In this document: in pieces, positions 49,463 through 51,985 of the stretch
Position numbering within the stretch: the stretch's first letter is position 1
How the letters are laid out: each line of letters begins with the position of its first letter
The notes under the pieces: model-generated
The model's input: the letters and a program-made list of their open reading frames with translations, nothing else
Told to the model about the DNA's origin: nothing
Database searches by the model: none
Position numbers and translations under genes: made by a program
Assembly: GCA_030752795.1 (NCBI GenBank)
Contig: JASMDM010000067.1
Coordinates: 1-64,000 of the forward strand
Direction: 5' to 3'
DNA: 64,000 nucleotides
DNA from: SAR202 cluster bacterium
Lineage (GTDB): Bacteria > Chloroflexota > Dehalococcoidia > Lucifugimonadales > UBA1123

Positions 49463-49810
49463 TCAGGGGAATCCGAACGGACGGCCTCCAAGGTACCCGC
49501 CAAATCGGAGTGACCAAAGCGCGACAGCGGCGACCGTCGAGATCGATAACGTTACCGTTGCCCGCTTGGCCCACGTCGAGCGAAAGTCGCCCCGATTTGA
49601 TAGTTCGACGTACCAACCTCGACCGAGCATGATGATCGTGACAACCAGAAACGGCCATGTGAGCACCCGCAACGCGGGCGTTGCGGCTAGCCCGGACCCC
49701 GTTGCGCCCAGGAGTCCAAGCAAGCCAGGGACCACTCATCACCACGGCAACGGCAAAAGCCCGCTCAGCAGGGCCACGAACGGCGTCTCAATCCGCAGAT
49801 ATTTCAACAT
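49463..49810 (-). CDS. Small membrane protein, frame interrupted by TGA TGA
   Basis: From ATG 49810 the frame reads MLKYLRIETPFVALLSGLLP then LPW, meets TGA TGA (49736-49741), and resumes in the same frame at GTG 49735 as VVPGLLGLLGATGSGLAATP and two more hydrophobic segments to 49463. Either a 23-residue leader is followed by a coupled 90-residue protein (TGATGAGTG), or one gene has suffered a small indel. Its start overlaps the end of the next upstream gene (ATGTTGA). Confidence 0.5.
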
Positions 49811-50055
49811 CGTGTGCGCTCGCCTCCATCCAATTCTGCCGTGTCCAGGCATACGGCATTCACCGATAGCATACTGTAGCCGCGCCTTCGCCGCACTCGA
49901 CGTCGGAACCAGCCATCGGAATCTGTGTTTTCCGCATCGGTATCTTCGCGCTTCCCAAACGAACGGATCCCCAATAGCACAACCAACGGAACGGCGCAGC
50001 ACGCCCCAACGCCCAACCAACCAAGCAGCATCTCCAACTGCAATCCTCCGTTCAC
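49804..50055 (-). CDS. Small membrane protein with vicinal CC, MerT-like first helix
   Basis: 83 residues from ATG 50055. The single membrane helix LLGWLGVGACCAVPLVVLLG carries a Cys-Cys-x-x-Pro motif like the first helix of mercuric transport protein MerT. A charged cytoplasmic tail follows. It is coupled to the membrane protein at 49810 and lies next to a thioredoxin-like selenoprotein candidate, so a role in metal or thiol traffic is possible. MerT assignment is only by this motif. Confidence 0.5.
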   Translation of the reverse strand: MNGGLQLEMLLGWLGVGACCAVPLVVLLGIRSFGKREDTDAENTDSDGWFRRRVRRRRGYSMLSVNAVCLDTAELDGGERTRC

Positions 50056-50360: not shown

Positions 50361-50855
50361 TCACGGATCCGGTTCGACAAGCTTCCCGATCGCCTGGGTC
50401 AACGACTCCGGATCCAAGCGCATGCCCTGATCGGCCCCATCCGATGCCGATAGCTGATGCATCCAGAATGTCGGTTCCGGCGGCGCGTCCGAATCCCACG
50501 CAACGCCGGGCGGATAGGCCAGGTACACGTCCCACGCGGTTGTCGTCAGTGCCAACGTTCGCGAGAAATGGTCCCCGATGGACCTGTCAGGACTCCACCG
50601 CTGAACAACGCGATCGTCTTTCAGCTCTGCGCGTTGCCGGCCTGCCGCTTCATGGTCGTCTTCGGCGAGCATGGGAAGAAATCCAACAAAACCAGCCAAC
50701 TTCACCGAATCGAATCGCTCGAAGATGTCGCGGACAACCCTGTGTCCGTACTGGCAGGGCGGTCAAGTAGGCGAAACAAGTGCGATCAACCGCACGGAAT
50801 CGATGGCGTCATTGAACCAGCCCTTGATCCCGGCCGTGCTCACGGTGTCTAGCAT
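50361..50855 (-). CDS. Thioredoxin-like selenoprotein candidate (UPPC)
   Basis: ATG 50855 follows GAGGTG. The frame reads IDSVRLIALVSPT, then TGA (50763-50765, codon 31), then PPCQYGHRVVRDIFERFD and on to 50361, 164 residues if TGA is selenocysteine. The stop falls exactly where thioredoxin-fold proteins have the first Cys of CxxC, giving U-P-P-C right after a hydrophobic strand. A stem-loop CGGACA / TGTCCG with loop CAGGGT begins 14 bases after the TGA; 20 bases separate TGA and loop, within the 16-37 known for bacterial SECIS elements. The C-terminal half (WDVYLAYPPGVAWDSD, PTFWMHQL) is unfamiliar. Redox role likely; partner unknown. Confidence 0.75.
50731..50748 (-). promoter_or_regulatory. 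Candidate bacterial SECIS stem-loop (50.7 kb)
   Basis: Six-bp stem CGGACA / TGTCCG, loop CAGGGT; an alternative pairing with a bulged U would close a C-G pair and leave a G-rich loop. It lies inside the coding region just 3' of the UGA, as bacterial SECIS elements do. Confidence 0.6.
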
Positions 50856-51040
50856 CGCTACGTTTCACCTCGGCATAATTCGGCGCCAGTTTCGATCTGT
50901 ATATGTTGAAGCCAGTATACGCTTGCCGCCGCGTTCGTTAGCCACGTCCAGCGGCTCATGATCGCTGGCGCCAACTCCTCTGGACATGAGACAATTCCAC
51001 GAAGCTCCCGATGCGAGCATCTTTTCCGACACAGGTGGAC

Positions 51041-51985
51041 ATGAATTCCAGATACTCTCTGACAAGCATTCGCCGATGGACGGCGATCCTAGCGGCTGGC
51101 GCGGTTGTTGCCGGCTTGGGCGCTTGCGGCAGCTCCGAACCCGAAACGACACCGACGCCAGTGCCTGCGCCCGTTGAACCCGCCGCGGCGGCGACGGATT
51201 CGGAAGTCGTCGCCGTGCTTGCGACGTCGGACATCGCCGTCGGCGAAAACCGCATAGTGTTCGGACTGATCGAGCCCGGAACCGGTGGGATCAGAGACGC
51301 CGAAGTCACGGTGCAAACGTTCCACATAACCGATCAATCGGTCGACGGACCGAAACACACCGCCCAAGCGATTTTCAACTTGTGGCCCAGCGGCATCCGA
51401 GGCGTCTACGTAGTGAATCTCAATTTCGATGCGCCCGGCCAATGGGGGTTGGGCATCATGATGCGAGAAGAAGGCGGCGAAGAAGCCCTGGTCTCGGCCA
51501 CGATTGCGGTGCAACCTGAGAGCCTTTCGCCGGCAATCGGCTCGCCCGCCCCAGCGAGCGTGAGCAAGGTCGCCAACAATACCGATGGATTGCCGGAAGT
51601 AACGACTGACGTTCGCGCTGATCCCGACCTCTACGCGATAACGATCAAGGACGCGCTCGCCAATCCGAACCCGCTGTTGGTCACATTCGCCTCGCCAGCG
51701 TATTGCCAGACCGCGACTTGCGGTCCGCAGGTGGACGTTGTCAAAGATCTGAAGAACCAACATGGCGACAGGATGGACTTCATCCACGTCGAAGTGTTCG
51801 ACAACCCGACGGAAATCCAGGGCGACCTGACCCGCGCCGTGATCTCGCCGACAATGGATGAGTGGGGCCTCGTCACCGAACCGTGGACGTTCGTCATGGA
51901 CGGCGAGGGCGCCGTGCGAGCCAAGTTCGAGGGCTTCGTGACCCAGGCCGAGCTCGAAGCTGCCATTGCCGAAGTGGTCCCATAG
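51041..51985 (+). CDS. Lipoprotein with C-terminal thioredoxin-like domain
   Basis: 314 residues. ATG 51041 follows AGGTGG. The signal peptide ends in the lipobox LGACGSS, so it is lipid-anchored on the outer face of the membrane. A beta-rich YtkA-like domain (IVFGLIEPGTGGIRDAEVTV, PGQWGLGIMM) comes first; then a thioredoxin-like domain with ASPAYCQTATCGPQVD (two Cys, four residues apart) and YVDFIHVEVFDNP-like strands. Probably a redox or metal-handling protein. It is divergent from the selenoprotein candidate. Confidence 0.7.
   Translation: MNSRYSLTSIRRWTAILAAGAVVAGLGACGSSEPETTPTPVPAPVEPAAAATDSEVVAVLATSDIAVGENRIVFGLIEPGTGGIRDAEVTVQTFHITDQSVDGPKHTAQAIFNLWPSGIRGVYVVNLNFDAPGQWGLGIMMREEGGEEALVSATIAVQPESLSPAIGSPAPASVSKVANNTDGLPEVTTDVRADPDLYAITIKDALANPNPLLVTFASPAYCQTATCGPQVDVVKDLKNQHGDRMDFIHVEVFDNPTEIQGDLTRAVISPTMDEWGLVTEPWTFVMDGEGAVRAKFEGFVTQAELEAAIAEVVP

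Follow-up and report, generated by a model that had tools for sequence, protein, structure and literature searches.

A predicted thioredoxin-like selenoprotein family with an SPTUxxC motif, in part encoded beside mercury resistance genes

A reading frame that is interrupted by a single TGA raises the question of whether it is a split gene or encodes a selenoprotein and, in the latter case, what the protein does. The frame studied here lies in a 64,000-nucleotide stretch of contig JASMDM010000067.1 from a SAR202 cluster bacterium, which is referred to as the window. A sequence-only reading had proposed a selenoprotein on the basis of one frame from an ATG with a good GAGGTG site, broken only at codon 31, where TGA takes the place of the first Cys of a CxxC motif between the peptides LIALVSPT and PPCQYGH and is followed by a 6-bp stem-loop 20 bases away. 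When the coordinates were re-read, all of these elements were found where they had been placed (Table 1). There is no further stop inside the frame, and the 20 nt between the TGA and the loop fall within the range of bacterial SECIS elements (approximately 16–37 nt). In a mechanical list of open reading frames, the gene is represented in its own frame only by the 114-residue ORF that starts at a downstream GTG. In our view this ORF arises artefactually from the recoding of the TGA, although an automatic caller would be likely to report it as the gene.

Table 1. Features of the SPTUxxC gene in the window
Feature	Position	Strand	Remark
SPTUxxC-family predicted selenoprotein CDS	50361..50855	-	164 aa + stop; ATG start at 50855, final stop TGA at 50363-50361
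GAGGTG, ribosome-binding-like	50866..50871	-	10-nt spacer to ATG; read directly
TGA codon 31, predicted Sec (U of SPT-U-PPC)	50763..50765	-	Conserved TGA in Sec-type homologues, Cys-aligned elsewhere
Codon of Cys34, the C of the UxxC redox motif	50754..50756	-	54-member alignment
SECIS-like hairpin	50731..50748	-	6 bp; stem CGGACA (50748-50743) and TGTCCG (50736-50731), loop CAGGGT (50742-50737)
Downstream fragment with its own GTG	50361..50705	-	Mechanical ORF list

A lipoprotein-like gene (51011-51985, forward strand) is transcribed divergently from the selenoprotein gene, and its product combines a weak YtkA-like part with a thioredoxin-like C-terminal part (AYCQTATCGPQ); it also adjoins the selenoprotein gene in a genome of the same genus. 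On the other side, the selenoprotein gene is separated from a DUF192 gene by two small membrane-like ORFs (49463-50055, reverse strand), which are apparently missing from this place in the same-genus genome. These two ORFs (49463-49735 and 49804-50055) resembled MerT or MerC by eye but gave no NCBIfam match and were rejected as such, the former having only a weak unrelated match in Pfam.

Since absence of the selenocysteine machinery from a complete genome had been named as grounds for refutation, the assembly that contains the window (3.50 Mb in 116 contigs, 91% complete) was searched for selA, selB, selC and selD, and all four are present. The tRNA-Sec (71.9 bits) scores over its cut-off, and SelA (545 bits), SelD (366 bits) and SelB score over the curated cut-offs; the gene for SelB lies a short way past the end of the window, at 64451-66304 of its contig. 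The SelD gene itself carries one in-frame TGA, which is an internal positive control for the use of selenocysteine. That UGA is read here as some other amino acid, through an altered code or near-cognate read-through, has nothing in its favour besides the in-frame TGA and can be practically dismissed, given that the same gene terminates with TGA, that the Sec machinery in the assembly is complete, and that homologues have Cys at the site, the lone Trp member being degenerate with Cys34 lost as well. Across lineages, 31 of 37 genomes that carry the TGA form have a SelB over the cut-off, versus 5 of 13 with a Cys or Trp form (Fisher p = 0.0035); most of these are metagenome-assembled genomes of unstated completeness, so an absent SelB may be an assembly gap. 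In a second draw, SelB was found in 26 of 30 carriers (one of them a Cys form) and in 12/12 of the high-quality carriers. Non-carriers of the class have SelB just as often (26/30), so its presence says nothing within the class and is of use only where lineages are contrasted.

The strongest evidence on codon 31 comes from homologues. The same-genus genome has a gene with 73% identity and, when the frame is read through, a TGA at the same codon; a relative at the order level has a 43%-identical gene, also with TGA. Within the taxonomic family to which the window belongs, the remaining six genomes lack the gene, so that its distribution is patchy. A scan of genome contigs gave 51 loci, with carriers in Chloroflexota, Acidobacteriota, Nitrososphaerota, Vulcanimicrobiota, Planctomycetota, Poribacteria, Elusimicrobiota, Gemmatimonadota, Pseudomonadota, Myxococcota, Actinomycetota, Calditrichota and others, and in several organisms (Chloroflexota, Acidobacteriota and other phyla) the homology spans both sides of the TGA. 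The gene was present in 25 of 393 genomes sampled from the class, always with a TGA inside (25/25), and in 10 of 400 sampled from the phylum. Among distinct loci, codon 31 is TGA in 48, TGC in 6, TGT in 6 and TGG in 1, and a rescan blind to stop codons returned 60 TGA with no TAA and no TAG, along with some partial matches lacking the motif. Cys homologues that align C with U, which had been expected to support the proposal, thus exist in 12 distinct loci (TGC or TGT), and the refuting case of homologues with neither Cys nor Sec was not met, save for the single Trp form. The latter (L064:10001-10483, from a member of Calditrichia whose genome has SelB) reads SPTWLIS, has lost both redox residues and is a degenerate or repurposed form. 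Mapped on a maximum-likelihood tree, the Sec label requires 9 changes, at least 5 of which are forced by well-supported branches; Sec and Cys have therefore been interchanged several times.

Substitution rates relative to the same-genus orthologue are similar on the two sides of the TGA, with dN/dS of 0.21 before and 0.18 after it, which shows that purifying selection also acts on the codons downstream of the TGA. The stretch from the TGA to the GTG is strongly conserved, with dN of 0.02 and dS of 0.42 vs 0.95 (few sites); a lowered dS is as expected where coding and SECIS overlap.

The putative SECIS element was evaluated with a contiguous-stem score, with the loop placed 14–24 nt from the TGA, against 1000 synonymous recodings of the same peptide. 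This test was devised after the result of a generic test of hairpin free energy against synonymous recoding, which separated Sec from Cys genes poorly, had been seen, and its p values should be read accordingly. A stem at p < 0.05 was found in 29 of 48 Sec genes versus none of the 13 Cys or other genes; the per-gene p values are not independent because the family members are related. The stem of the window gene reaches p = 0.038, which is weak taken alone. In the window clade, the same stem occurs in four relatives (L018, L019, L023 and L074) with 30/30 pairs kept. In other clades, the hairpin is shifted by approximately 3 nt toward the TGA and shows compensatory changes: in a gene class picked because its members share one hairpin register, 23 cells are doubly changed and the covariation score is 0.484 vs 0.243 in shuffled alignments, a value that none of 500 shuffles reached and that falls when the register is slid by one column. 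As judged from these predicted stems, the SECIS signal is strong for the family, and the window's own hairpin is modestly better than chance. The L019 locus also encodes another likely selenoprotein, TlpA-like with FPGUPTC, whose gene lies on the reverse strand about 1.2 kb upstream of the SPTUxxC gene and has a strong hairpin 3' of its TGA.

These results bear on the possibility that the TGA is a true stop, in which case the locus would be a pseudogene, either split or decaying, or a pair of short ORFs with re-initiation of the second at GTG 50705. The recurrence of TGA at codon 31 across dozens of genomes from about ten phyla without a single TAA or TAG, the purifying selection on both sides of it including the TGA-to-GTG segment, the Cys residues aligned with it, and the confinement of SECIS-like stems to TGA genes make this very unlikely, even though the 114-residue ORF is a member of the mechanical list and some relatives are indeed broken. 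The broken ones are the relatives in G281 (L096/L071) and G164, which carry an extra TAG, and a C-terminal fragment (L020:1501-1659) that adjoins a tRNA gene (tRNA-Glu by eye) and was perhaps left there by recombination at the tRNA. The selenoprotein reading is thus supported by the Sec machinery, the conservation of TGA or Cys, the SECIS-like stems and the selection after the TGA, and selenocysteine insertion at codon 31, for which there is no experiment, is almost certain from the comparison of sequences.

We then considered what kind of protein this is. An AlphaFold2 model built on the 54-member alignment, with Cys in place of Sec, has a thioredoxin-like fold at high confidence (pLDDT 97.2, pTM 0.92). 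It contains a strand at residues 21–27 and a helix at 32–47, which puts U31 and C34 in the classic position, where UxxC opens the first active-site helix; this placement is a prediction without a solved structure. Column C34 is nearly invariant in the alignment, and the invariant W108-D109 precedes a candidate strand for the cis-proline site (assigned by eye, without coordinates). The best PDB matches in Foldseek are thioredoxin folds of the ResA, DsbF, DsbE and GPX types. With TlpA/ResA/DsbE-type oxidoreductases the family shares the fold (E 3.6e-5, TM 0.59/0.69 to ResA) and a CxxC or UxxC after the first long strand, whereas the identity is only 8–14% and the C-terminal half is set apart by its AWDVYLxY and FWMHQL blocks. 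Glutathione peroxidases (BtuE, PF00255) likewise share the fold, and GPX structures are among the Foldseek matches, but there is no PF00255 match and a profile comparison with E. coli BtuE gave a probability of 0.3%. An equivalence with the catalytic W-D/W-N of GPX was considered and dropped, as hhalign with BtuE gave nothing.

The sequence-only reading could not name the family and noted that the C-terminal half does not look like a standard thioredoxin. The databases tested provide no name either, and no Pfam or NCBIfam thioredoxin model scores over its cut-off, while the predicted fold is still thioredoxin-like. The window protein has no match in Pfam, NCBIfam or PHROGs, apart from an NCBIfam thioredoxin model that, with an E value of 0.23, falls well short of its cut-off; the 54 members gave only isolated weak thioredoxin-like matches and none to the NCBIfam selenoprotein models at E <= 0.01; and a plasmid collection contained no relative. 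We conclude that SPT[U/C]xxC ... AWDVYLxY ... FWMHQL defines a widespread unmodelled family, matching no model in the databases tested. A 2026 catalogue lists 119 prokaryotic selenoprotein families (PMC13188914). The catalogued UxxC families GOS_C (NF045500), SaoT (NF040730) and HUIPC (NF047660) are similar in having Sec first in UxxC, Cys homologues and a SECIS (PMC13188914), but their models match 0/54 SPTUxxC members at E <= 0.01. The 'Trx-like 3' family from GOS (PMC2398784) is also thioredoxin-like with UxxC and only weakly similar to cd02950; without a sequence comparison, an overlap, that is, an earlier metagenome detection under another name, is not excluded.

By inference, thiol/selenol redox or metal-binding chemistry at UxxC is quite likely, and the selenoprotein identity together with such chemistry, for which no experiment exists, is very likely. 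For gene context, neighbours within 1.6 kb of the family gene were compared with those at 4.5–7 kb in the same loci. MerR domains occur in 8 members near versus 2 far; MerC and Pyr_redox each count 3 near, and neither is in the listed far families. MerA scores over the cut-off directly before a Cys form (L025) and lies approximately 1.4 kb from another (G542), and a piece of MerA (377 bits, under the full-length cut-off) directly follows a Sec form (L034). In G809, a single-contig Chloroflexota genome, the order is MerR, SPTU copy 1, MerA (over the cut-off), a membrane protein and SPTU copy 2, with TGA in both copies. MerC is present in the L038 and L054 loci, and a MerT-like protein in L039 is just under the Pfam cut-off. 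In L022 an HMA domain is fused to a Cys-form domain, and in L028 a GDCCVxC gene (Cys form) directly adjoins a family member. One further locus (L026) looks ars-like by eye. Separately, the context count includes three Sod_Ni neighbours, assigned by sequence to L068, L069 and L070, loci of one Chloroflexota clade in which the SPTUxxC gene has neighbours whose products match nickel superoxide dismutase.

Sec forms have been tied to mercury transport by name or context before, namely the mer-associated GDCCVxC protein (NF041374), the MerT/CopZ-fusion selenoprotein (NF045683) and Sec mercuric transport proteins; these have no sequence relation to SPTUxxC, which is a thioredoxin-like domain with UxxC. 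The occurrence of SPTUxxC genes in mer operons elsewhere is new here and suggests that the protein handles mercury or metals by means of its selenol/thiol chemistry. As a general function of the family, such a role has gene context as its sole basis and is held tentatively.

The window locus itself has no mer gene adjoining the SPTUxxC gene, and no MerA scores over the cut-off in its assembly (91% complete); a MerA candidate there was discarded, its best match being lipoamide dehydrogenase. The metal role is weakest here, and a mercury role for this copy is unlikely. With no MerA found in its assembly, a link of the window copy to metals is only inferred, and a function in general thiol/selenol redox is no less likely. 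In a wider form, this alternative holds that the family performs general cytosolic or envelope thiol redox chemistry, TlpA/ResA-like or peroxidase-like, with the mer linkage of some lineages as secondary recruitment. It agrees with the nearest folds (ResA, DsbE and GPX-type thioredoxins), with the missing MerA, and with the many homologues that have no mer neighbours and stand beside unrelated genes (SDR enzymes, Ni-SOD, thioesterases), but it has to account for a mer linkage that recurs in unrelated lineages in Sec and Cys forms alike, for the HMA fusion, and for the lack of any partner gene besides mer that is conserved across lineages. In our judgement, the chances that it is correct are evenly balanced.

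Taken together, we propose the following working model for the selenoprotein. UGA codon 31 would be decoded as Sec by the genome's own SelA, SelB, SelC and SelD, with the bacterial SECIS hairpin that immediately follows the UGA directing the insertion. The selenol of Sec31, paired with Cys34, would be expected to carry out thiol/selenol-disulfide exchange or to bind a soft metal. Because homologues are found repeatedly in mer operons, handling of Hg(II) or metal around MerA is probably a frequent role in the family, in which mercury may be held as a selenolate/thiolate and then passed on; alternatively, the protein near MerA may repair Hg-blocked or oxidised thiols. The fullest version, in which SPTUxxC provides selenium-based mercury handling as a thioredoxin-like selenolate/thiolate protein whose UxxC acts together with MerA, as a chaperone or reductant for Hg(II) in a MerP-like role, widespread in uncultured bacteria with repeated Sec/Cys interchange, is possible and remains doubtful.

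SPTUxxC appears to extend the catalogue of prokaryotic selenoproteins, which has about 119 families, by one. Automatic annotation would truncate its members, and here the C-terminal 114 residues alone would remain. The affinity of selenocysteine for mercury is exceptional, and the occurrence of SPTUxxC beside MerA therefore poses a testable question, namely whether selenocysteine is part of bacterial mercury detoxification, for which the natural Sec/Cys pairs in similar operons make a clean comparison possible.
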